Below, one piece after another: positions 23,314 to 42,690 of a stretch of 42,690 nucleotides of DNA; the stretch's first letter is position 1, and each line of letters starts with the position of its first letter. Under the pieces are notes generated by a model. That model worked only from the letters and a program-made list of their open reading frames with translations, did no database searches and was not told where the DNA came from. This stretch comes from Bauldia sp. (GTDB taxonomy: Bacteria > Pseudomonadota > Alphaproteobacteria > Rhizobiales > Kaistiaceae), in contig JALHRF010000018.1 of NCBI GenBank assembly GCA_022841545.1, positions 1-42,690 of the forward strand, written 5' to 3'. A program made the translations under genes and the position numbers.

Positions 23314-26300
23314 TCAGAGGCCGAATACCCGCTCGGCCGGGCTCCCCGGGCCGTCGGTCGCACTGACCTGCCGTACACGCACCCCGATCGCACTCGGCGG
23401 TGCGCCGAAGTCCGCGGTCTGCTCGGCTGCGGGATAGAGCAACGCCGGCACGACGGTGGCAACGCTTCGCACGACCACGTCCCCGTCGAGGATCTCCACC
23501 CGGTAGGCCTCGTTGGCCTCCCCGAGCGGCACCTCGACCGGCTCCCAGGCGTCGCCGGCGATCCGGGTCTGCCGCGCCCAGGCAATGACGACATCGCCGC
23601 TGCCGGCATCGCGCCGCGCCGTGAGTCGGACCGGCGGCAGGCACCGCAGCCCACGCCGCGCCGGCGTCAGCCCGATATCGACGAAGAGGTCCGGGTCATA
23701 GACCGTGTCCGCCGGACCGCACCGCGCCGTGAGCTCGAGACCCGCTTCCGCCTCGCTGATCGCAAGCGGTGCGACGGCGCTGTTGAGGAGCACGAAGCGG
23801 GCGCCGGCGGCATGCCCGGCTTCGGCGACGTCGCCGGTGCCCCCCTGCCCCCGGAGCAGTCCCGCCAGGCGCCAGGTGGTGGCGTCGATCATCGTCGCCT
23901 CCCGGAACTGGATCACCTCGAACCCGGTTTCGGCGGTTCCAACGGCAGCAACATTGCCGCCGTTGAGCATCGCGAGCTCGGGCAGGCTGGCGAGCGTTCC
24001 GCCATAGAGTCTGACCGTGACGCGGTCTGCCCGGTCGAACCGCCAGAGCGGCCCCGGCCCGAGCGGCTCGGTCAATTCCCCCATGACTGCCGCCTGCTCG
24101 ATTGCCTGCCGCGGCAGGAACCCCGCCTCGGCGGTACCGAGCGCCACGGCGATGGTTCCCGGCCAAGGCCGTGCGAAGGCGGCGACCCGCGGAGCGTAGG
24201 GCGGCTCGTCGCCTGCGACGAGGGGCAGGTCGAGGAACATCACCTCCGGCGGCGACGGGGGCGCGGTCCGGCGCGGCAGGTGCACCCGCGGCGCATCCGG
24301 CGTCGGCGACAGGATCGCCGGGTCGATGCTCCGCGCCTCGATCCTGCGCGCCGCGCCGTCCTCGATCCGCGACACCATCAACGTCAGGGTCATGCCGCGA
24401 ACGGTTACGTCACAGATGTCGCCCGGCTCGACCGCCTGCGCGGCCCGCGGCAGCGCGAAAGTCGCCGTCTCGCGCCCGGCCCAAAGATCCTGGAGCATTG
24501 CGTCGGCCAGCCCCCGCGCCACGGCGTGGCTCATCGCGACTCCCGTCATGCTCCGGATGCTCCGTCCGCTGCCGGTGACCAGCCGGCGCGCACTCGCCTC
24601 GGTGGCGCGGACGTCGGCGAGCGGATCGTTGAAGCCGATCGCGATTTCCTGTGGCAGTTCGGTCTCCTGCGCCCGGCGCAGGCTGAACACCGGCCGGCCC
24701 GGCTCGTCGACCATGTCGGCCTCGCCGAATGGCGCCACGGTCTTGCGGCCGCGCGGCGCGATGCGGATCGCCGCGCCCGACTCGAATGCTTCGAACATGA
24801 GCAGCGAGGCGAGCGGCTCCAGGGCCTGACGCGCCGAGCCGATGCCGTCGATGAGGTAGCCGTCGACGACGCCGTCGAGTTCGGCGACCTCGACGCCGTC
24901 GATGTCAAAGTCGGCGAGAATCCGCATGACGAGGTCAGTGGCGGGCGCCGCCCCAAGCCGTCCGCTCAGCCAGTGCCCCGTATCCCAGTTCTCGCCGTCA
25001 CCCCATACGTCGAGGAGATAAGGGAACGCCGGGAATGGCCGCGCATCCCATGTCCAGAGATGGGTGCGGCCGTGGCGTACCATCCGCTCGCCATAAACCG
25101 CGGAGAGCGGATTGCTCCCATCGACATGGTTGGGATCGTTCGGGTCCCAATAGGACAGCACGGCCTCGCAATAGCGCCGCTGCATGAGGTCGTCACGGAC
25201 GCCGGTCGAGTAGTACGGGAAGGCGCTCGCCGACGATTTCGGGTCGGGAAAGACATTCGGCTGGTTGGCGCCCTTGTCGACCGCCGGGCAGCCCGCCTCG
25301 GTGAAGCGGATCTGCTTGCCCTCGGGGACCCAGGCCGTAGGGCTTCCCGCCTCGACGCCGCCCGGCCGGTTGAAATGGGCACTCCCCCACCAGGACTTGA
25401 GGTCCTTGAAGCGGAAGACCCACGGCTTGCCGTAGGCCCCGTCGGTGATCTCGGTCCGGACCTGGTCGTTCCGGTCGGCCTTGCTCTGGTAGTACCAGTC
25501 GAAGCCCTCGCCGCCGGCGACATTCGCCCGCAGATAGGCCGTGCTTCGCCCTGAGTCCCAGGCGGCCGCGTCGAGATGGTCGCTGCCCTCGCGCCAGTCG
25601 GCGAGCGGCATGTAGTTGTCGATGGCGACGAAATCGATGTCGTCATGCGCCCACAGCGGGTCGAGGTGGAAATACACGTCGCCCGATCCGTCGTCCGGGT
25701 GATGCCCGAAATACTCCGTCCAGTCCGCCGCGTAGGAGATCTTCACCGACGGCCCGAGGATCTGCCGGACATCTTCGGCGATGGTCTTCAGCCGGTTGAC
25801 GAAGGGGTAGGTGTTGGCATCGGAGCGAAGCGTCGTCAGTCCCCGCATCTCCGAGCCGATCACGAACGCATCGACCCCGCCCGCCGCCTTGCAGAGCTTG
25901 GCGTAGTGGAGAATGAACCGGCGATAGCTCCATTCATCCGGTCCGTCATAGACCACGGTGTCGCCGAAGAGCGAGAAGTCGCCAGGGTCGGCATTGCCGA
26001 CGAAGGCCGCCACCTGGTCGGCCGCCGTCGACGTCTTGTCCGGCGAGCCGTCGACCCCCGGCGCCTTCGACGCCGTGATCATGCCGCGCCAGGGATAGGC
26101 CCCCTGCTCGCCGCCGCCATAAGGATCGCCGAGTCCATTGCCGTTCGGAATGTCCATCATCACGAAGGGGTAGAACATCACGTTCAGCCCTCGCTCGTTG
26201 AGGTCGCGGATGGCCGCCACCACCGAGGCGTCGGACGGCGTGCCGCCATAGGCGGCGCGGCCCTGGTGCTGGCTGACGAGGTGCGCGGTCCCGCGCAGTT

Positions 26301-27225
26301 GGCCTGCCACCCGCCACACGCCCGGCGCGGTGACGATCGTCTGCGACACCACGCCCGGCCGGATCTCGCAGTGATTGGCGCGGAGGTCAGTGCCGAACCA
26401 CGCCGCCACCAGTCCGACGCTCTCGAGGTTCGGACAGAGATCCTGGAGTTCTCCGACGGCCGTCTTCCAGTCGGTCGCCGCCCGGTCGGTATGGTCGTTG
26501 AGCGGCTCGCGATGCCCGGGCCCGCGCACCTGCCGCATCTTGGTCGGGCTGTAGCCGAACTCGGTCGCGCCGGGAATCATCGTCACCGCACGGATGTCTT
26601 TCTCGAGTCGGCCGACCGGCCGGATCACCTCGAAGGAGAAGTGCGGCACCCGGTTGCCGAACTTCGCGAGCGGCAGCCGCTCGAAGACGATGTAGGCCGT
26701 GTTCCGATAGGCCGGCGCCCTGCCGTTGCCCTGCTTGGCCTCGATCAGGCTGTCGGGTTCCTGCCCCGATGTGCCGCGGTGAAGCCGGTAGCTGGCGTCT
26801 GCGAGATTGAACGGCTTGCCGTCGGCCCACACCCGGTTGATGCGGGCGATGGACCCCTCGCACAGCCCGATCGCGAAGTTGGCGAAATACCGATACTGTT
26901 TGAGCGTCGTCCCGCCACCCGATCCGCCCTTGCCGCCGCCCTCCGCCTCTTCCTCGCGCACCTCCTCCTCGAAGCGCGTCGCCCAGATCATCTCGCCCGT
27001 CACCCGCACCCGTCCATAGACCCGCGGGATCGGCGCCCCCTCGCGCGAGGTCTGGACGTCAAGGTCCGAGAGGCGTCCGCTCTCGACCGTCCGTCCGGTC
27101 GAGAACAGCGACTGGTCGATCGCATAGCCGGCAACCGCGCCGACAGCGCGGCCGATCACGGTGCCGATGGGCCCAAAGATCGAGCCGACCGCCGCGCCGG
27201 CGGTGGAGAGAAGAAGCGTGGCCAT
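23314..27225 (-). CDS. GTA megatron baseplate protein (RcGTA gp15 type)
   Basis: A 1303-residue multidomain tail-tip protein, the largest component of the GTA baseplate, thought to carry sugar-processing/adhesion and tail-closure functions. The N-terminal Gly/Ala-rich hydrophobic segment (GAAVGSIFGPIGTVIGRAVG) and IPRVYGRVRVTGEMIWATRF are typical. Residues about 440-740 form the GTA TIM-barrel-like domain (FVIGSEMRGLTTLR, VKISYAADWTEYFGHHP, GCPAVDKGANQPNVF). The C-terminal third matches the phage tail/baseplate domain. Length fits the family (about 1300) and there is no break. It would normally follow the NlpC/P60 gene directly; here a toxin-antitoxin pair lies between. Confidence 0.93.
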   Translation of the reverse strand: MATLLLSTAGAAVGSIFGPIGTVIGRAVGAVAGYAIDQSLFSTGRTVESGRLSDLDVQTSREGAPIPRVYGRVRVTGEMIWATRFEEEVREEEAEGGGKGGSGGGTTLKQYRYFANFAIGLCEGSIARINRVWADGKPFNLADASYRLHRGTSGQEPDSLIEAKQGNGRAPAYRNTAYIVFERLPLAKFGNRVPHFSFEVIRPVGRLEKDIRAVTMIPGATEFGYSPTKMRQVRGPGHREPLNDHTDRAATDWKTAVGELQDLCPNLESVGLVAAWFGTDLRANHCEIRPGVVSQTIVTAPGVWRVAGQLRGTAHLVSQHQGRAAYGGTPSDASVVAAIRDLNERGLNVMFYPFVMMDIPNGNGLGDPYGGGEQGAYPWRGMITASKAPGVDGSPDKTSTAADQVAAFVGNADPGDFSLFGDTVVYDGPDEWSYRRFILHYAKLCKAAGGVDAFVIGSEMRGLTTLRSDANTYPFVNRLKTIAEDVRQILGPSVKISYAADWTEYFGHHPDDGSGDVYFHLDPLWAHDDIDFVAIDNYMPLADWREGSDHLDAAAWDSGRSTAYLRANVAGGEGFDWYYQSKADRNDQVRTEITDGAYGKPWVFRFKDLKSWWGSAHFNRPGGVEAGSPTAWVPEGKQIRFTEAGCPAVDKGANQPNVFPDPKSSASAFPYYSTGVRDDLMQRRYCEAVLSYWDPNDPNHVDGSNPLSAVYGERMVRHGRTHLWTWDARPFPAFPYLLDVWGDGENWDTGHWLSGRLGAAPATDLVMRILADFDIDGVEVAELDGVVDGYLIDGIGSARQALEPLASLLMFEAFESGAAIRIAPRGRKTVAPFGEADMVDEPGRPVFSLRRAQETELPQEIAIGFNDPLADVRATEASARRLVTGSGRSIRSMTGVAMSHAVARGLADAMLQDLWAGRETATFALPRAAQAVEPGDICDVTVRGMTLTLMVSRIEDGAARRIEARSIDPAILSPTPDAPRVHLPRRTAPPSPPEVMFLDLPLVAGDEPPYAPRVAAFARPWPGTIAVALGTAEAGFLPRQAIEQAAVMGELTEPLGPGPLWRFDRADRVTVRLYGGTLASLPELAMLNGGNVAAVGTAETGFEVIQFREATMIDATTWRLAGLLRGQGGTGDVAEAGHAAGARFVLLNSAVAPLAISEAEAGLELTARCGPADTVYDPDLFVDIGLTPARRGLRCLPPVRLTARRDAGSGDVVIAWARQTRIAGDAWEPVEVPLGEANEAYRVEILDGDVVVRSVATVVPALLYPAAEQTADFGAPPSAIGVRVRQVSATDGPGSPAERVFGL

Positions 27226-27471: not shown

Positions 27472-27933
27472 TTATGCGGCCAGGAGCAACCGATATTCGG
27501 CGGGGTTGCTCCCGTCGATTACGATCTGCTGAGGCTTCGCGCTTGGGACGCACCGGGCGCTGATGTCGGCGATGGTCTTGCCGTCGATTGGCAGGTGCAG
27601 GCGCTCGATCGCGAGAAGACGGATCAAGGCCTCGGCAGCCGGGTCGATCGGGGTCTCCCCACGCTCCCAGCGACCGACGCTCTGGCCATCGTGGTGGACG
27701 ATCGAAGCCAGTTCGGCCTGGGTCAGGCCCATTTCGGTGCGGAGGAAACGCATTTCAGCGCCACTCATTCCGGCCGCATGTTCCACGATACCGGTCGCAA
27801 TCGCCAGGTGAAGACCATTGACGTTCGGAACGGTAAAAACCTCGTCGCCCTCGTCATCCACGCACGACGGAAGCCCCTCGACCATGACGTTGTCCAAGCC
27901 ACTCTCCTTATAGTGGTAGATCGCAGCGTTCAT
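27472..27933 (-). CDS. XRE/MqsA-like antitoxin (HTH)
   Basis: A 153-residue antitoxin of the type that pairs with DUF4258 toxins. The N-terminal part reads YHYKESGLDNVMVEGL, then VPNVNGLHLAIATGIV. The helix-turn-helix is MRFLRTEMGLTQAELASIV with VGRWERGETPI, as in MqsA C-terminal domains; it lacks MqsA's two CxxC zinc pairs. The frame opens with a TTG at 27948, but the ATG at 27933 has GGGAA at the right spacing. It begins 17 bases after the toxin gene. It probably binds its own promoter (see the palindrome upstream of the toxin). Confidence 0.75.
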   Translation of the reverse strand: MNAAIYHYKESGLDNVMVEGLPSCVDDEGDEVFTVPNVNGLHLAIATGIVEHAAGMSGAEMRFLRTEMGLTQAELASIVHHDGQSVGRWERGETPIDPAAEALIRLLAIERLHLPIDGKTIADISARCVPSAKPQQIVIDGSNPAEYRLLLAA

Positions 27934-27950
27934 GGTGTTTCCCATCAATC

Positions 27951-28286
27951 TTACCTGCCATGGGCCAACGGTTCATCGGCCCACATCACGGTGATGATCT
28001 TGATATGGTTGCTTTTCCAGCTCGGGATCAGCACCAGACGAACGTCTCGGTTTCCCGAGTTCGGGGTCCGGCTCTCCATCTGATACTTCCAAAAAGCCGG
28101 TCTGCTAGACGGCTGCGCCAACTCGTAGACGAAACCGAACTTCAGCACATGCGTCACGTCGCCCATGATCAGGCCGCGCGCGGTCAACTGATCGAGAGCG
28201 TGCCGCTTGTATGAAATGTCGACCCCCCCCTTGGCGAGGTAGCGTATGCGTTCCGTCGCTTGCGCAGGAGTCCATGGCTCTGGCAC
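27951..28286 (-). CDS. DUF4258-type toxin candidate
   Basis: A 111-residue protein with the small alpha/beta RelE-like fold expected of DUF4258/BrnT-like toxins: SYKRHALDQLTARGLIMGDV followed by THVLKFG, a beta segment WKYQMESRT, and a C-terminal VRLVLIPSWKSNHIKIITVM. It starts with GTG at 28286; the GAGG upstream is unusually close. The gene is toxin-first and followed 17 bases later by the antitoxin gene. The pair lies between the peptidase and megatron genes of the GTA tail operon, same strand, so read-through expression is likely. Function as a toxin is inferred from the pairing. Confidence 0.72.
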   Translation of the reverse strand: MPEPWTPAQATERIRYLAKGGVDISYKRHALDQLTARGLIMGDVTHVLKFGFVYELAQPSSRPAFWKYQMESRTPNSGNRDVRLVLIPSWKSNHIKIITVMWADEPLAHGR

Positions 28287-30679: not shown

Positions 30680-31675
30680 TCACGCCAAGTTCACCCCACG
30701 CTCCCGCGCTTCGTTCTGCGCCGCAATAAACCGAATGAGGGGATAGAATAAGGCGTCCGCCACCGCAAACAATATCTCGCGGTCCCACCGTTCCGTGAAC
30801 ACACCGCGCGATTCGCTGTCTACGGTGAGAAACCCGAGGGTCAACGGCTCAATCCCTTTGAGGTCCGGAAATTCCCCACGGCGAATAGCGCACGCCATCG
30901 TGCTTCGGTAAGGAAGGGGCCAACGACGATGGAATATCCGGTGCAGAACGCCGCCATCGGCGACCTGCTCGCCGTAGTTCGGTTGATACGCGGTCATGCT
31001 CGTCGTCGAAAATCCATGATGGCGTGGCAGATTATTGGAGATAAAGTACCAACTCGTTCCCTTGTTGCCAGTCATTCTAACGAATTCGCTGTTTTTCGAT
31101 AGAGGATCGTGGTTTTGCCGGACTCGCCATTGATCCATTTCGTGACAAGCATCGCGTGAGCCGGAATCTCGAGTCAATGTATAAAAATAGGGCTCATCTC
31201 CCACCGGGTAGATCAACTTGATTGTTGTCCTACAATGTGTTGATGTCAATATTAAAAATATTCGAGCTAGTTGATCCAATACGGCCTGGAACATTTTCCT
31301 AGTTTCCACTATATACTTTTCGTGCTCGCCTGGAGTGGCGCCCTCTTTCGGCTTTGCATTTTGCATGTAGGTTTCAATATCGCGTATTAGATGAGAAATC
31401 TTGTGTGCATTCGTTGTGATATTTGCGTATTTTACCTTGTGAATGGTGAAATATGCATACACACATAAGGCGAGAATCACGATTAGAGATACTGCACCGA
31501 AATAGATGGCAGCGACTCGCCCGATTTGATCTTGGCTCGAAAAGAAGAGCTTGATAAGGTCAAAACCGGCTATCAGAGCCAGGATTAGACCGACAACACC
31601 AGCGACCCAGCCCGCATAGCGACGAAGCCGAAACCACGCTTCTGAACCATCCGTAACGGATTCCCCAAGCTTCAT
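30680..31675 (-). CDS. Membrane protein with GAF-like C-terminal domain (low-GC cargo)
   Basis: A 331-residue protein not belonging to known GTA genes. Two membrane segments (about 21-45, GWVAGVVGLILALIAGF; and 55-79, IYFGAVSLIVILALCVYAYF) are followed by a helical linker (about 85-130) and a C-terminal domain whose last part, LTLGFLTVDSESRGVFTE then ILFAVADALFYPLIRFI, looks like the closing strands and helix of a GAF domain. The start at ATG 31675 is chosen for the adjacent GGGGGAG; a GTG at 31696 is possible. The DNA is much more AT-rich than its neighbours (for example 31180-31480), a sign of transfer. A sensor or defence effector role is a guess. Confidence 0.7.
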   Translation of the reverse strand: MKLGESVTDGSEAWFRLRRYAGWVAGVVGLILALIAGFDLIKLFFSSQDQIGRVAAIYFGAVSLIVILALCVYAYFTIHKVKYANITTNAHKISHLIRDIETYMQNAKPKEGATPGEHEKYIVETRKMFQAVLDQLARIFLILTSTHCRTTIKLIYPVGDEPYFYTLTRDSGSRDACHEMDQWRVRQNHDPLSKNSEFVRMTGNKGTSWYFISNNLPRHHGFSTTSMTAYQPNYGEQVADGGVLHRIFHRRWPLPYRSTMACAIRRGEFPDLKGIEPLTLGFLTVDSESRGVFTERWDREILFAVADALFYPLIRFIAAQNEARERGVNLA

Positions 31676-31881
31676 ACTCTCCCCCCGATTCCGCACGTAC
31701 TAGGAAATTTGAGGGTATGCTAGCGTGGGTTGAACGACAAGATCAATTCACGTTCAATGCCTCCTGAGTGCGTCCTCTACTCGAAGCCGCCGAGCAAGCT
31801 TTGTCGTTTCCCCACTTGCCTAAGGCAGCGCTTCACCAGGCGAGAGCGCCTACCGGGCACGTAACGGTGGCCAGAGAAGCG

Positions 31882-36121: not shown

Positions 36122-37378
36122 TCAGGTCGTGCCGAACTTGAGGAGCTTGATGGCGTCGAAGTCCTGGACGCCGCCGCCGACGCGCTTGGTGGTGTAGAAG
36201 AGCACGTAGGGCTTGGCGGAATACGGGTCGCGGAGCACGCGGATGCCGACCCGGTCGACCACCAGATAGCCGCGGCGGAAGTCGCCGAAGGCGATCGAGT
36301 AGCTGTTCGCTGCGATGTCCGGCATGTCTTCGGACTCGGCGATCGGGAAGTTCATCAGGCTCGCCGTACCGCCGGCGATCGTCGCCGGCTGCCAGACATA
36401 GTTGCCGTCGGCGTCCTTCAGCTTCCGCACCGCGGCCTGCGTCTTGCGGTTCATCACGAAGGTGGCGTTCTGCCGGTAGCCGGACTTCAGCGTGTAGACG
36501 AGGTCGATCAGGCCGTCGGCCGGGTCGTCCTCGGCGAAGCCGGCCGAGACGCCGGTGACGATGTAGCCGATGTCCTCCCAGGCCCAGCTCGCCTGGGCGA
36601 CCTTGTCGTAGCTGAGGAAGCCCTTCGGCTTGTTGGTGCCGTCGCCGGTGACGAAGGCCGTGCCCTCCTGCGTGGCGAAGGCGGTCTCGACCTCCTCGGC
36701 CAGCCACTCGTCGATGTTGACGGCGGCGTCGTCGAGGAGCGTCGCGGTCGCCGCAGGCATGGCGTAGAGCTCCATCGCCGGGAAGGCGAGCTCGGCCAGC
36801 GTCGGCGCCGCGGTCTCGGGCCGCGCCGCCGTCTCGCCGACCCAGCCGGTGGCCGCGCCGGTGATCGCGAACGGCTTCTTGTAGACATTCCCGGACACCT
36901 GGCGGATGCCGGAGATGCCGCGGATCGGCGAGACGGACGCAAGGCGGCGCCCGATTTCGCGCTCGGTCTCCTCCGGCACGACGTAGCCGCCGTCGGAGCC
37001 GACCGCGAGCGACTTCCGCTCGATCGCCCGGAGCCCGTCCTCGTTGCCGCCGCGCACATAGGCGTCGAACGCCGCCTTGTGCTCGAGGTTCACCGCCGAA
37101 CGCGGCCCTTCCAGGCCGAGCGGCGGCCGCCGGCCGCGGAGCACATACTGGTCCATCGCCCGCTTCTGCTCGTCGAGCGCCTTCGAGATGCGCTCGACCT
37201 TCTCGACCGTCACCACGTCCGCGGCCCCCTTCCGCTCCAGTTCGTCGAGCTTCTTGTCGTTGCCTTCCTTGAAGGTCTCGAAGGTGCGGCGGAAATCGTC
37301 GAAGGCCTCGGCGAGCACCGGCTCGCCGGACTTCACCTCCGGCGCCTTCAGGCATGCGTCATGAGTCACGGTTTCCAT
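36122..37378 (-). CDS. HK97-fold major capsid protein (RcGTA gp5 type)
   Basis: A 418-residue capsid protein. Residues about 22-78 form a charged coiled-coil (FDDFRRTFETFKEGNDKKL onward), the delta domain that acts as scaffold and is removed by the prohead protease. The HK97 core begins near 100 with KAAFDAYVRGGNEDGLRAIE, then KSLAVGSDGGYVVPEETER, GTAFVTGDGTNKPKGFLSY, and ends DFDAIKLLKFGTT. The ATG at 37378 has AAAGGA upstream. It normally follows the protease directly; here about 3.4 kb of cargo lies between. The 269 bases 5' of it hold no gene I can support. Confidence 0.95.
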   Translation of the reverse strand: METVTHDACLKAPEVKSGEPVLAEAFDDFRRTFETFKEGNDKKLDELERKGAADVVTVEKVERISKALDEQKRAMDQYVLRGRRPPLGLEGPRSAVNLEHKAAFDAYVRGGNEDGLRAIERKSLAVGSDGGYVVPEETEREIGRRLASVSPIRGISGIRQVSGNVYKKPFAITGAATGWVGETAARPETAAPTLAELAFPAMELYAMPAATATLLDDAAVNIDEWLAEEVETAFATQEGTAFVTGDGTNKPKGFLSYDKVAQASWAWEDIGYIVTGVSAGFAEDDPADGLIDLVYTLKSGYRQNATFVMNRKTQAAVRKLKDADGNYVWQPATIAGGTASLMNFPIAESEDMPDIAANSYSIAFGDFRRGYLVVDRVGIRVLRDPYSAKPYVLFYTTKRVGGGVQDFDAIKLLKFGTT

Positions 37379-37647
37379 CGTGTCGGTCCTTTCGTTGCGG
37401 ATGATGAGACTTGCGCCCGGCCTCTGTGCACCGGGATGATTCAGCGCGAGCAGGAGCCGGCCGCCGGCGCCTTCCGCCCACGACCGCGCCGCGGCCACAC
37501 CTGTTCGACGATAGCGAAACCATGCCCGAACAGCGTCACGCTGTCAAGGATTATTTTCCTAGTACTGTATCTGCGTAAGAGACATGTGTCCGTGCAATGG
37601 AACGACGCCATCAGGCAGCCGACGCCCGCTTGGGTTCGGCATGCGTT

Positions 37648-38017: not shown

Positions 38018-39052
38018 TCACCTCGGCTTGACCGTCCCATCATCCAGCCGGCGCAGCCGGCTTTCGGCGGTTCCGGCATATGGCATCCAGTGCGAATCCC
38101 GGATGGTTTCCAGCGCCCGCCGCGCCGCGTCCGGCGCGACAGCGAGCGTGTCCATTGCCGCGTTGAGCCGCACCTGCAGATTCCTGTGTTCGAGGAGCGG
38201 CAGGAGCGCCCGGCGCTGGTCGCCGTCGCGGCCCCTCAGCTCGGCCTCGACGGCCCGGCACAATCCGAACAGCCGATTGTACCGCGAGATCTCGTCGACC
38301 TCCTCCGCCTCGTATTGCGCCAGCGAAATCGCGACATAGCGCTCGACCAGTTCCTCGGCGGTCATGTTGCGAAGCTGCACGCGCTTGCCATGCGTGCGTG
38401 CCCCCCTCGCCTGCGCGTGCACCGGCCCACCGGGCACGACGCCGCTCGGCCCTCGCTCCGGGGTCCAGCCGTCGTCATCGATCGCGTCCAGCCGGCTCCT
38501 CGACCGTTCAGGCGCAATCTCCCGCGTCGCGTCGGCTGCCCGGGCGCGGACGGCGATATGAGGGTGTGTGTAGAGCGAGAGCAGCGCCCGCAGCCCGTCG
38601 TCGCCGTCGCCGTCGCGCCAACGCAGCTCGTCCGCGATCGCCTCGATCTTCCAGTAATGGCGATCCCTGGTCTCGATCGCCGCGCCGTCCTCCCGGATAG
38701 CCAGCACCGCGAACCGCTCGAGCAGCTCCGTCGTGGGAACCGTCCGCAGGCGCGGATCGCGCACATGAAGCGGCGGCTCGCCGCCCTTGTTCATACCGCC
38801 GTGATACCACCGCATCAGCTTGATGATCTGCGCGGCCCGCTCGGGATCGGCCCGCTCCTTCTTCGTCAGCGAGGCGAGCCACTCGTCATCGCCCCGCGCC
38901 TGCAGCTCGCGCTCGACCGCCGAAAGCTTGGCGACATAGCTCCGCGATTTCTTGCCACCAAGCACCTCCGAAACAGGCCGCTCGTTCCCGATCGCGTGGT
39001 GGCGTTTGAGGAGACCGTTTACGTCCAGATCCTTCAACTTGACCCGCTGCAT
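38018..39052 (-). CDS. Protein with three tandem DUF2019-like units
   Basis: A 344-residue soluble protein. The third unit (about 228-344) is a full DUF2019 domain: MTAEELVERYVAISLAQYEA, RYNRLFGLCRAVEAELRGRD, HRNLQVRLNAAMDTLAVAPD, and a SHWMPYAG end. The second (about 105-200) is diverged (TTELLERFAVLAI, ALLSLYTHPHIAVRARAAD), and the first (about 5-80) keeps only the first two helices. The repeat pattern (short helices with HPN-QVRLNAA) is HEAT-like. The start at 39052 has AGGG upstream; 39088 is less likely. It is the third DUF2019 gene after the nuclease-like toxin and is inferred to be an immunity-type protein. Confidence 0.72.
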   Translation of the reverse strand: MQRVKLKDLDVNGLLKRHHAIGNERPVSEVLGGKKSRSYVAKLSAVERELQARGDDEWLASLTKKERADPERAAQIIKLMRWYHGGMNKGGEPPLHVRDPRLRTVPTTELLERFAVLAIREDGAAIETRDRHYWKIEAIADELRWRDGDGDDGLRALLSLYTHPHIAVRARAADATREIAPERSRSRLDAIDDDGWTPERGPSGVVPGGPVHAQARGARTHGKRVQLRNMTAEELVERYVAISLAQYEAEEVDEISRYNRLFGLCRAVEAELRGRDGDQRRALLPLLEHRNLQVRLNAAMDTLAVAPDAARRALETIRDSHWMPYAGTAESRLRRLDDGTVKPR

Positions 39053-39145
39053 TGCCCTGGCTCTCCAGAACATAACAGGAACATACAACCTTATGGTGTC
39101 CCGAACGTCAAGCCCTGAATCGGAGCACGTAGAGCGGCGGTGCCG

Positions 39146-39517
39146 CTACTTCGGCTCGAAAATTCCATCATCGAGCGCGAAGAGAGTCATGCCCGCGTCG
39201 CCCGCTTGCGGGTAGTGGTGTGAGGCGGCAAACGCTTCAAGCGCCTCGCGCGCGGCCTGCGGCGCGACGGCAAGTGTCGACTTCACCGCATTGAGCCGGA
39301 CCTGCATGTTCGGATGCTCGTAGAGTCGGAGCAAAGCCGTCCTCTGGTCACCGTCGCGACTCTTCAGCTCATATCTTATGTCGCGCAGCTGATCGAACAG
39401 ACGGTTGAATGCGGCGTGGTCGTCCTCAAGCTCAGCGCGATACTGCCTCAGCCCTAGATCGGCGAACCGATCGACAAGTTCATCCACCGACATTTCCTTC
39501 AGGCTCTTGCCTTTCAT
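39146..39517 (-). CDS. DUF2019 protein (second copy), probable immunity protein
   Basis: A 123-residue single-domain DUF2019 protein: MSVDELVDRFADLGLRQYRA, FNRLFDQLRDIRYELKSRDG, EHPNMQVRLNAVKSTLAVAP and a PQAGDAGMTLFALDDG end. About half of its residues match the first copy (39606-39980). The ATG overlaps by ATGA the stop of an orphan toxin 3' end (39514-39594), the same junction as between the intact toxin and the first DUF2019 gene. Immunity function is inferred from this arrangement. Confidence 0.8.
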   Translation of the reverse strand: MKGKSLKEMSVDELVDRFADLGLRQYRAELEDDHAAFNRLFDQLRDIRYELKSRDGDQRTALLRLYEHPNMQVRLNAVKSTLAVAPQAAREALEAFAASHHYPQAGDAGMTLFALDDGIFEPK

Positions 39518-39594
39518 TGTTTGAGCACTCCGAACTTGGTCAGCGCGTACAATCCTACTCGTCTGCGGGTATTGGCCCTACTGACGGACCAAGA
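39514..39594 (-). pseudogene. Orphan 3' end of a second toxin gene
   Basis: A 26-codon open stretch ending RRVGLYALTKFGVLKQ and TGA, directly overlapping (ATGA) the start of the second DUF2019 gene. The intact toxin ends FDVGLAGLRAVGVLK, also overlapping a DUF2019 start: 8 of the 13 residues VGL...GVLK are identical. The rest of the toxin is absent; an in-frame TGA precedes the fragment. It looks like the residue of a lost or displaced toxin whose immunity gene was kept. Confidence 0.6.
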
Positions 39595-39605
39595 TCACGC
39601 CATGC

Positions 39606-39980
39606 TCAAGTCGGCCGGTACACGCCCTTCTCCAGATTCCACAGCGACATACCCGCATGCAATGCCTGCGGCATCCAACGGGACTCGCGAATCGCGACCA
39701 GCATCGCACGAGCCGCCTCCGGCGCGACTGCAAGAGTGGCTTGCGCTGCGTTCAGCCGCACCTGCATGTTGGGATGATCGTAGAGTTTCATGAGCGCCGC
39801 GCGCTGATCTCCGGTCCTTGCCTTGAGTTCCGCCTCGACCGCAATGAGGCCGTCAACGAGACGATTGAATTTGGGGACATCGTCGTCCAGCTCTGCCTCA
39901 TACTGCGCGATGCCGATGGCCGCATATCGCTTGACCAGACTTTCGACTGACATCTGCTTGAGATCGATCTTCTTCATCAC
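39606..39980 (-). CDS. DUF2019 protein (first copy), probable cognate immunity protein
   Basis: A 124-residue DUF2019 protein: MSVESLVKRYAAIGIAQYEA, FNRLVDGLIAVEAELKARTG, DHPNMQVRLNAAQATLAVAP, and a PQALHAGMSLWNLEKG end. It starts with GTG overlapping the toxin stop, or with the ATG one codon on (TGATG), so it is translated together with the toxin, the normal set-up of a cognate toxin-immunity pair. DUF2019 itself has no described function that I know; the immunity role is inferred from position and duplication. Confidence 0.82.
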   Translation of the reverse strand: MMKKIDLKQMSVESLVKRYAAIGIAQYEAELDDDVPKFNRLVDGLIAVEAELKARTGDQRAALMKLYDHPNMQVRLNAAQATLAVAPEAARAMLVAIRESRWMPQALHAGMSLWNLEKGVYRPT

Positions 39981-40774
39981 TTGAGAACCCCCACCGCTCT
40001 CAGCCCCGCCAAGCCAACGTCGAAGCGAACGTCCTTATCCTTTCCAACGACATACTCCCTCGGGGTTAGCCAGCCATAGTCCCGGATGCGCGTCTCAAAC
40101 CACTTGTTGAGCTCCCAGTGCTTCAGCGTCGGTATGCGCACGAGGTTCTCGGGACCGTCCAGCCAGGACACGGGTATGTTGCCTTTGATGCCCGACGCGC
40201 GCTCGACGATGTGGTGTATGTCATAACCCTTCTTTCGCTCCGCCACAGCGGCCCGAAGCTCGTCCAGCGTCCTGGGCTCATCCTGATAGGCCTCGATGTA
40301 AGGCCAGTGATCGTAGATCCAGTACCCGGCCTCATACACGTCCAGGGCTCGGCCAATCGGGGTCACTCGAATCCCGACGCGCGCGGCCCTCAGAAGCCAC
40401 CGCGCAACCCGCTTTACGAACCGGTTCCGGTGGCGAGCTCTCTCCGGTCTTTCTTTCGGAACCTCCGGCGGTCGATCGTCGCCAGCATCATCGTCCGAAA
40501 CCGGCTCCTCGAACTCCGACGGTTCCAGTTCCTCGCCGCCTGACGCGCCGCCGTCCGTCCACCGCCCGCCGTCGGTGTTGCCGCGCGGCACGCGCGGCTG
40601 CGACGGCCAGTTCGGGTTGTAGCGCCGCTCCAGCCGGCGCTCGTGGAGCAGCCGCCCGAGACGCGCCATCGCCATCTCGAAGCGTCCTTCCGCCGTCGCC
40701 GCCTTCATCGCCAGCGTCGCACGGCGGATCGCCGCGAGGAGCGCATCGCGCTCCCGCATCCCAAGTCCGGTCAT
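39977..40774 (-). CDS. HNH-like nuclease toxin with a prohead-protease-like N-terminal tail
   Basis: A 265-residue protein in three parts. Residues 11-26 (ALLAAIRRATLAMKAA) repeat the last 16 residues of the neighbouring prohead protease (ALLNAIRRATAAMRAA), 13 identical. A linker follows with RVPRGNTDGGRWTDGG (61-76), a motif type seen between phage structural domains and toxin tips, then an acidic low-complexity stretch (80-110). The C-terminal domain has GYDIHHIVERAS (His187, His188, Glu191), DGPENLVRIPTLKHWELNKW (Asn210, His219, Asn223), a treble-clef HNH-type pattern. I infer a nuclease toxin that could be packed in the particle. It lies 70 bases after the protease gene and overlaps the first DUF2019 gene. 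No secretion signal. Confidence 0.78.
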   Translation of the reverse strand: MTGLGMRERDALLAAIRRATLAMKAATAEGRFEMAMARLGRLLHERRLERRYNPNWPSQPRVPRGNTDGGRWTDGGASGGEELEPSEFEEPVSDDDAGDDRPPEVPKERPERARHRNRFVKRVARWLLRAARVGIRVTPIGRALDVYEAGYWIYDHWPYIEAYQDEPRTLDELRAAVAERKKGYDIHHIVERASGIKGNIPVSWLDGPENLVRIPTLKHWELNKWFETRIRDYGWLTPREYVVGKDKDVRFDVGLAGLRAVGVLK

Positions 40775-40844: not shown

Positions 40845-41360
40845 TCACGCCGCCCGCATGGCCGCGGTCGCCCGGCGGATCGCGTTGAGCAGCGCCGTAT
40901 GCCCCTTCACCGCCTCGACCCGCGCCTCGGGCAGCATCGGGAAGGTCACCACCGAGATTTCCCAGAGGTCGATCTCGATGAGCTGGCGGATGCCGGTCTT
41001 CCGGTCGGTCCGGCCGCGCACCGTGCGGTAGCCGATCGACAGCCCGTCGAGCGCGCCCGCCCGCATCAGGCTGAGCACCTCGCGCGCCCGCGCCACGCCG
41101 GGCGTCAGCCGCCCCTTCACCCACAGCCCCCGCCCGTCCTCGCGGATCTCGTCCCACACGCCGATCGGCTGGCCGGGGTCGTGCTGGTAGAGCATCTTCA
41201 CGCCGCCCGCGCCGCGCGTCCGGAGCGAGGCCGCGAACGCCCCCGGCATCACCATGTCGCGGCCGAGATCGGCCTTGCCGAACAGCGATGCATAGCCGGC
41301 AAAGGTTCCGTCCTCCGCGACGGCAAGCGCCGCGCGGGCAAACTTCGTTTCGGTCTTCAT
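40845..41360 (-). CDS. HK97-family prohead protease (RcGTA gp4 type)
   Basis: A 171-residue maturation protease that removes the capsid delta domain. FAGYASLFGKADLGRDMVMP near residue 20, KMLYQHDPGQPIGVWDEIRE with the catalytic His, ALDGLSIGYRTVRGR with the catalytic Ser, and IDLWEISVVTFPMLPEARV make the S78 family certain. The frame opens further up at 41411, but the ATG at 41360 has GAGG at good spacing. The C-terminal tail ALLNAIRRATAAMRAA is a predicted amphipathic helix, repeated at the N-terminus of the next gene; in HK97-type systems the protease enters the prohead by contacts with the capsid scaffold domain. Confidence 0.93.
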   Translation of the reverse strand: MKTETKFARAALAVAEDGTFAGYASLFGKADLGRDMVMPGAFAASLRTRGAGGVKMLYQHDPGQPIGVWDEIREDGRGLWVKGRLTPGVARAREVLSLMRAGALDGLSIGYRTVRGRTDRKTGIRQLIEIDLWEISVVTFPMLPEARVEAVKGHTALLNAIRRATAAMRAA

Positions 41361-41389
41361 GATGATCCTCGTGGCATCAAACACGCTGT

Positions 41390-41463
41390 CACCCCGGGCT
41401 CGGTGCAGCACGTCGTGGTGCGCCGCCGACCCGGGACCCCGAGACGCTGGCGCGCCAGCGTCC
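41390..41463. repeat. REP-like compound repeat
   Basis: GTCACCCCGGGCTCGG...CGACCCGGGACCCC followed by a perfect 18-base palindrome ACGCTGGCGCGCCAGCGT at 41444-41461. The set fills the space between the protease gene and a 44-codon frame. The same style of repeat is common between genes in Hyphomicrobiales. Confidence 0.6.
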
Positions 41464-41713: not shown

Positions 41714-41899
41714 TCAATCCCGGTCGAAGAACCGGTTCAGCCGCGCGATCTCGCTGACGAAGTCGTTGAACCGCCGGTTCGAGGCCGCGAGTTCGCGAAG
41801 CGCCCAAAGCAGCAGCCCGCTCGCCCCGCTCGCCCACAGGAAGAGCGCGAGATGCGCGAGGTCGCCCCGCTCGCCGAAGATCTTCGCGATATCGTCCAC
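41714..41899 (-). CDS. Small GTA membrane protein (RcGTA g3.5 type)
   Basis: A 61-residue protein: RGDLAHLALFLWASGASGLL and LWALRELAASNRRFNDFV, then IARLNRFFDRD. One hydrophobic helix (about 14-33) is followed by an amphipathic helix. It matches what I remember of the small protein between portal and prohead protease in GTA clusters. It starts with GTG at 41899, with GAGG 6 bases upstream. Its position next to a portal remnant fits the normal order. Confidence 0.7.
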   Translation of the reverse strand: MDDIAKIFGERGDLAHLALFLWASGASGLLLWALRELAASNRRFNDFVSEIARLNRFFDRD

Positions 41900-41954: not shown

Positions 41955-42139
41955 ACCGCCCGTAGCCGACCACGGCGCGCTTCTCGTTCGCGCTGAGGAA
42001 CGCCGCCGCCCCGACCCGCGCCCACAGCGGCTCGCGCTCCGACGACAGCGCCTCGACCTGGTCGGTGTCGTACCAGAACTGCAACCCGCCGCCGTCGCCG
42101 ACGGCCGCCCACCCGCGCCCACAGCGCCGCGCGCTCGGA
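41955..42139 (-). pseudogene. Rearranged 3' fragment of a GTA portal gene (gp3 type)
   Basis: On the minus strand LQFWYDTDQVEALSSEREPL, then WARVGAAAFLSANEKRAVVGYG is the C-terminal end of an HK97-type portal protein. Only about 45 residues are left, and the remaining several hundred codons are absent. Upstream, at 42111-42139, is a second copy of the SERxxLWARV coding segment (26 of 29 bases identical to 42014-42042) 97 bases away and in another frame, so the fragment has suffered duplication and deletion. No start codon or ribosome binding site belongs to it. The sequence from 42140 to 42325 shows nothing I recognise. Confidence 0.7.
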
Positions 42140-42325
42140 GTGCGGTTTCCTCGACGGGTTGCTTGCGCGTAATCCGACCGGGGGCGGAGCTTCAGCGGTC
42201 TCGCGCGATGGCGACCCGGACTGGAGTCTTCGCGACGACGACGAATGACGCCAATTCCTCACCATGATCCGAGACCGGCTACCGCCATCTTGATCTGAGC
42301 GCCGCGGCCGCGGGATCATGGGTAG

Positions 42326-42568
42326 TCAGCGATACTGGCCATGCTCCTTGATGCTTGCGTCGATTTCCGCTGCGAGTTCAGGGTGCGCGGCGATCGCTTG
42401 CCTGATCAGGGCGGTCCCAACGCCGTCGATGGCAGCGGCAATGCCGCGAGCAAGTTCACGATACTCCTCCGGTGAACATCTCGCCTTCAGCGCTTGGAGA
42501 ACCGCCTCCAGCTCGCGCGATACCGTGAAGTCTACGCGAACCATTTGTCGCGCTAGATCGATGTCCAT
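42326..42568 (-). CDS. Small uncharacterised protein
   Basis: An 80-residue helical, mildly acidic protein (VDFTVSRELEAVLQALKARC, CSPEEYRELARGIAAAIDGV). I do not recognise the family. The start at 42568 lies directly at the edge of the probable insertion sequence and has no clear ribosome binding site, so its promoter may have been cut off. It stands where the body of the portal gene would be expected. Confidence 0.5.
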   Translation of the reverse strand: MDIDLARQMVRVDFTVSRELEAVLQALKARCSPEEYRELARGIAAAIDGVGTALIRQAIAAHPELAAEIDASIKEHGQYR

Positions 42569-42569
42569 G

Positions 42570-42690
42570 TTAGAGCGTGTTTGAGAAGGGGATTCCCAGC
42601 GTGACTCTGGCGTGATTCATCAGGTGTCGGTTTGATTCGGAGACCGACACGATGGCACGCAGGAAGCGGGGTCGGCGCGGCTACGCGACC
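42570..42690 (+). mobile_element. Left end of a probable insertion sequence
   Basis: Beginning near 42571 with GAGCGTGTTTGAGAA, the sequence looks like an IS terminal inverted repeat, followed by about 80 bases of leader with an internal inverted repeat (GTGTCGGT ... ACCGACAC at about 42624-42650). An ATG at 42652 opens a frame rich in Arg/Lys (MARRKRGRRGYAT) running out of the window, as a transposase N-terminus might. The other end is outside, so neither family nor target duplication can be confirmed. Confidence 0.4.
42652..42690 (+). CDS. Possible transposase start (3' partial)
   Basis: Thirteen codons (MARRKRGRRGYAT) reading off the right edge, basic, directly after the IS-like leader. 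Too short to assign on its own; the call depends on the terminal sequence at 42571. Confidence 0.3.
   Translation, partial: MARRKRGRRGYAT

Follow-up and report, generated by a model that had tools for sequence, protein, structure and literature searches.

A portal gene 3' end at a contig break in a Bauldia gene transfer agent cluster: a candidate displaced tail of a toxin-exchange array

Introduction

Has the gene transfer agent (GTA) cluster at the end of a Bauldia contig lost its portal gene, or does the fragment that remains there have another origin? A GTA cluster whose head genes are absent or fragmentary is commonly scored as decayed. A first-pass annotation had read this locus as one in which the portal is reduced to a stub beside a probable insertion sequence (IS). 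The window analyzed here (42,690 bases) is the entire contig C18, and its right edge is the contig end. The assembly to which it belongs comprises 5.58 Mb in 373 contigs, with an estimated completeness of 96% and contamination of 5.2%.

The gene transfer agent cluster

The minus-strand locus of the window is an RcGTA-like gene transfer agent cluster. Its baseplate megatron protein (23314..27225, minus strand) matches NF048004, the NCBI GTA_megatron model, with 1747 bits (cut-off 800), and a GTA_TIM match has an E value of 2e-148. Gene order is conserved, with an HK97-type prohead protease (Peptidase_S78; 40845..41411, minus strand), the major capsid protein (36122..37498, minus strand), and connector, tail tube, DUF2460, baseplate hub, NlpC/P60 and GTA_TIM proteins. 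The capsids closest to that of the window are from Bauldia. The same order is found in Bauldia litoralis (G002, about 30 contigs), in which a small g3.5-like gene and then the protease come after an intact portal of 404 aa; the window's copy of this small native gene downstream of the portal (DLAHLALFLWASGASGLLLWALRELAASNRRFNDF; 41714..41899, minus strand) is 81% identical in B. litoralis. The capsid and tail genes are intact, as first described: all GTA genes other than the portal are open and under purifying selection, with dN/dS values of 0.13-0.52 against B. litoralis for the structural genes and a higher value for the tail fibre. This ratio, suggested earlier as a guide to the fate of the locus, cannot date any loss.

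Two further features were observed among genes g12 to g15. Between g14 and g15, an MqsA-like antitoxin ORF and a small partner ORF (27472-28286, minus strand) possibly form a toxin-antitoxin pair within the GTA cluster. A 338-aa membrane protein is encoded between g12 and g13 (30680-31696, minus strand); because a similar-looking gene lies directly after the terminase of another Bauldia assembly (G003; L144 1918-2919), this gene may be mobile GTA-linked cargo.

Two portal 3' ends next to a repeated insertion sequence end

The 3' end of a portal gene, the stub, lies in its native context at 41955..42114 (minus strand) and ends in GLQFWYDTDQVEALSSEREPLWARVGAAAFLSANEKRAVVGYG. Read from 42114 to 41953 on the minus strand, about 54 codons (rather than the roughly 45 first counted) match residues 343-396 of the B. 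litoralis GTA portal at 61% identity, and they lead straight into the g3.5-like gene. The 29-base repeat reported 97 bases upstream is also real and is portal-derived. The two copies (42136-42108 and 42039-42011) are identical at 26 of 29 positions; 500 third-order Markov simulations of 800-base stretches gave at most 23/29, which rules out a chance origin, and four intact portals gave 19-21 of 29. Within the B. litoralis portal, the upstream copy aligns best at precisely the SEREALWGRVAA segment (24/29), and it is therefore a second portal 3' piece, shorter than the stub (SERAALWARVG; 42108..42139, minus strand), which abuts the stub in another frame. It starts at an ERxALW motif, at or near which most displaced portal copies in the relatives described below also start. 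Two portal 3' pieces, not one, are thus joined head to tail, and a simple 5' truncation leaves the first, short piece unexplained.

Upstream of the portal pieces is an 80-codon ORF (42326..42568, minus strand) of no accepted family, which we confirm to be unrelated to the portal. Among 31 genomes it has one distant relative (49%), in G029, in a non-GTA context. Assignment to the OHCU decarboxylases was rejected, the score being under the curated cut-off, as was a role as cognate immunity gene, since the sole relative found adjoins unrelated genes in G029. The interval from the IS to the stub showed no remnant of a toxin or linker.

The IS-like end occupies 42572..42690 (plus strand) and includes the beginning of a frame (MARRKRGRRGYAT...); the contig breaks inside it. 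This end, first placed at 42571, is confirmed: 116 of the final 119 bases of C18 recur at 100% identity, and in matching orientation, at the end of contig C90, and a 54-base stretch at the ends of C189, C220 and C140 is 80% similar to it. A plasmid comparison for the identity of the IS gave no match; as for terminal repeats and a transposase gene, just 119 bases precede the contig end, which is shared with C90. The description of the region as rearranged and adjoining a probable IS is therefore borne out. The assembly stops at a repeated IS end, and because the contig breaks at a repeat, the absence of portal and terminase from the window is uninformative about the genome. The lack of a terminase in the window, noted in the first-pass annotation, says as little about the genome: the window stops where the contig stops.

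Possible loss of the portal gene

Of the RcGTA pair formed by the portal and large terminase, only the portal 3' end is seen in the window, and the contig ends there. A GTA-type portal body was not found in the rest of the 96%-complete assembly, nor was a GTA-type terminase found in the assembly, either by family or by protein. A genome-wide search for a second portal gene, as proposed in the first-pass annotation, did recover other portals, on C268 and C16, but none of GTA type. These are divergent and were rejected as the missing portal at just 36% and 26% identity, respectively; C268 additionally encodes its own terminase, protease and a capsid of another type. The B. litoralis terminase-portal interval, traced in the source genome, led to no syntenic contig.

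This absence is the main evidence for true loss, in which the portal body and terminase would have been deleted, with the 80-codon ORF and the IS now in their place, and the remaining GTA cluster would be a recent relic or be kept without packaging. Such events do occur: Nitrobacter sp. Nb-311A (L065/G044) keeps an 88-codon portal stub in its native context and has no other GTA-type portal in its genome, and pseudogenization and loss of GTAs have been reported for several alphaproteobacterial lineages (PMC10883770). Loss alone does not explain the second portal 3' piece beside the stub, however, the remaining GTA genes are all open and under purifying selection, and the contig simply ends. We regard true loss as the serious rival to a displaced tail, though clearly the less likely of the two.

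Two comparisons bear on how the absence is to be read. Two other Bauldia assemblies that carry GTA genes, G003 and G004, are likewise fragmented; a GTA portal was not found in them either, and their GTA contigs end in the terminase, in the protease or just before the expected position of the portal. This weakens the absence from the source assembly as evidence of loss. A 10 kb locus (L059) considered as an example of a decayed portal was rejected, because the whole genome has an intact portal 5 kb further up; that an intact portal lay outside the 10 kb locus recommends caution for the window too.

Duplicated 3' ends and toxin fusions in related clusters

In each of 80 related clusters, we looked for parts of the cluster's own head genes that are present a second time. 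The last 70 residues were copied in 4 of 58 loci for the portal, 2 of 71 for the protease and 5 of 80 for the capsid. Copies of the first 70 residues were found in 0/58, 0/71 and 1/80 loci, respectively (the single capsid case is a weak 19-residue match), and of the middle part there was only one, for the protease, which is the same B. litoralis tail. Some of the ORFs that separate duplicated 3' ends are toxin-like or immunity-like.

In L077 and L082, the portal frame runs about 200 residues further, behind a linker (YREDQPRVPAG..GG.W). Both loci also carry g6, g9 and g12-g15, indicating that they are GTA clusters. The extension in L082 contains an RNAse_A_bac (CdiA-CT) RNase domain (49.9 bits, cut-off 27); it is the only one of the full-length portal fusions whose toxin domain has Pfam support. 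L077, G010 and G046 show a linker and an extension, and in the window no such fusion is visible. Across 83 loci, the GTA strand has 34 occurrences of the linker motif and the other strand 0.

The arrangement seen in the window recurs in relatives, in which portal tails coexist with an upstream portal (G010, G046, L077 and L086). In G010, a complete genome of the same family in one contig, the terminase is followed by a portal that carries a C-terminal extension after a QPRVPRG..GGQWT linker; there is a frameshift in this portal near residue 100. Next come an immunity-like ORF, a displaced 3' end of the portal (residues 284-389), two further ORFs and g3.5. The Hyphomicrobium MAG G046 has an intact portal fusion of 538 aa and, over the next 5 kb or so, three portal 3' pieces; CdiA_C and RNase A-type toxin domains lie among the pieces, the last of which adjoins the protease. 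The displaced tails of these two genomes lie 0.6-5 kb downstream of the portal. Their portal tails are homologous (39%, E 3e-21), as are the ORFs following the tails (38%, E 6e-17); tail and next ORF thus appear co-conserved, as expected for a putative toxin and immunity gene traveling together. Displaced portal pieces in L072, L077, L082 and L086 start at or within a few codons of ERxALW. That the short copy in the window shares this start is suggestive of a common junction, in a comparison that was chosen after the window was seen and was not a planned test.

Other head genes show related features. Second capsid 3' ends occur in L051, L063, L081, L031 and L069, several with toxin-like ORFs between. 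In L175 (G046:C15:13317-13751), a MafB19-like deaminase domain directly follows the GTA protease and is itself followed by a small ORF.

A complete genome also offers a precedent for a further explanation, an in-place split of the portal gene by a mobile element or IS, with the body on one side and the 3' end on the other: in G051, portal residues 16-276 and 273-393 lie about 13 kb apart (L177 2798-17138), and a serine recombinase-like gene directly follows the first part. The IS end in the window would fit such an event, but it lies about 450 bases from the stub and not at its edge, and a split would not create a second 3' piece; we consider this explanation improbable. Least probable is an assembly error, in which the joint between the IS side and the stub would be chimeric, from two genomes or from two copies of the GTA. 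The assembly is fragmented and contaminated, misassembly is easy where 3' ends are repeated and GTA genes are related, and the GTA contigs of relatives break in the same genes; on the other side, neither the two portal pieces nor the 80-codon ORF is found elsewhere in the assembly, and the same kind of joint is present in the complete genome G010.

The toxin-like module between protease and capsid

One of the 34 linker motifs lies in the window itself, in a toxin-like ORF behind the protease (39977..40774, minus strand). This ORF has no family hit; its QPRVPRGNTDGGRWT linker is followed by a nuclease-like tail (HHIV...N...H), and its N-terminus (ALLAAIRRATLAMKAA) resembles the C-terminus of the protease (ALLNAIRRATAAMRAA). 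A structure match, tried by sequence, gave none. Three consecutive DUF2019 ORFs follow (38018..39980, minus strand), which are immunity-like by position. Homologs of the toxin-like ORF in G002 and G004 contain an internal stop. In B. litoralis, duplicated protease 3' ends flank the toxin/DUF2019 module (L143 18267-18479 and 19687-19896), and in G003 they flank a DUF2019 ORF (L145 1-175 and 1118-1397).

A probable displaced tail in a proposed exchange array

The reading that we favor, with modest confidence, is that the stub is probably a displaced portal tail in a CDI/Rhs-like array, whose intact portal would lie beyond the contig break. In the mechanism that these sequence comparisons bring to mind, the 3' ends of Hyphomicrobiales GTA head genes would act like the junctions of CDI/Rhs toxin C-termini. 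Incoming DNA, composed of a portal 3' end, a toxin domain and an immunity gene, would recombine at the conserved ERxALWxRVxAAxFLTxxEKR segment; the portal would gain a new tail, and the old native 3' end would shift downstream while staying beside the native g3.5. Several tails could accumulate through repeated rounds. The window would then hold the stub tail and a fragment of a second tail, head to tail, with an IS further upstream in which the assembly halts.

Several findings count against a displaced tail: a GTA portal body and terminase were not found in a 96%-complete assembly, no vestige of a toxin or linker separates the stub from the IS, the 80-codon ORF matches no known immunity family and the one relative found for it lies outside a GTA, genuine loss of the GTA portal occurs in L065/G044, and the short copy spans just 11 codons or so. 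A secondary-copy origin of the stub, with the portal past the IS, had been named in the first-pass annotation as the case that would overturn its own interpretation; it is now the favored one, drawing on the arrays of relatives and on the contig break. The reduction of the portal to a stub, by comparison, is not established, given a contig that breaks off in a repeated IS end, the presence of two portal 3' ends, and tails that coexist with an upstream portal in relatives. Because intact portals, some of them with an antibacterial-type toxin, stand upstream of such tails in several relatives, the locus cannot be called dead from the window. Toxin delivery, also raised earlier, gains from the toxin-type domains on the portals of relatives but receives no support from the window's own portal piece.

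Implications

More broadly, we judge it an evenly balanced proposition that Hyphomicrobiales GTA head genes, the portal above all, carry exchangeable antibacterial toxin domains; displaced 3' tails would mark past exchanges, the DNA-transfer particle may also deliver toxin, and the window would hold one such array. In the open-access literature searched, including GTA papers and the pairing of GTAs with polymorphic toxins, we found no description of toxin domains on GTA head genes. If tails are shed in toxin exchange, a fragment is no proof of death, and such clusters would be misjudged in surveys that accept only complete genes. Fusions of portal and toxin in GTAs would also be directly relevant to the open question of what maintains GTAs: particles carrying DNA together with a toxin, kin being immune to it, could restrict gene transfer to kin.

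Comparison with known systems

The locus resembles the Rhodobacter capsulatus head-tail cluster (RcGTA) in its protease, capsid and g6-g15, including GTA_TIM/megatron and baseplate hub, in the same order; the RcGTA-like relatives found have capsids about 58-84% identical to that of the window. It differs from RcGTA in having toxin-like ORFs and duplicated 3' ends between the head genes, and no portal body is seen. In phage portal-effector fusions (PMC5512222), the portal likewise bears an extra domain whose injection is predicted, but those are phages, whereas here the fusions belong to GTA clusters with displaced-tail arrays. In MuF phage polymorphic toxins (PMC5576092, PMC3482391), toxin domains are borne on a head-associated protein beside portal and terminase, and delivery by the particle has been proposed; in contrast, no MuF domain is seen here, and the relatives fuse a toxin-type domain to the portal. 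The CdiA-CT/CdiI and Rhs orphan modules (PMC3150448) share an exchangeable C-terminal tail on a carrier, tandem displaced tails downstream, a fixed junction motif and an IS in the array. As in an orphan-tail locus, extra carrier 3' ends are present, as two portal pieces in the window and as arrays in relatives. Unlike in the CdiA-CT/Rhs systems, the carrier here is a GTA portal, protease or capsid gene, and several of the displaced pieces are the carrier's own conserved 3' end, not just the toxin tail.
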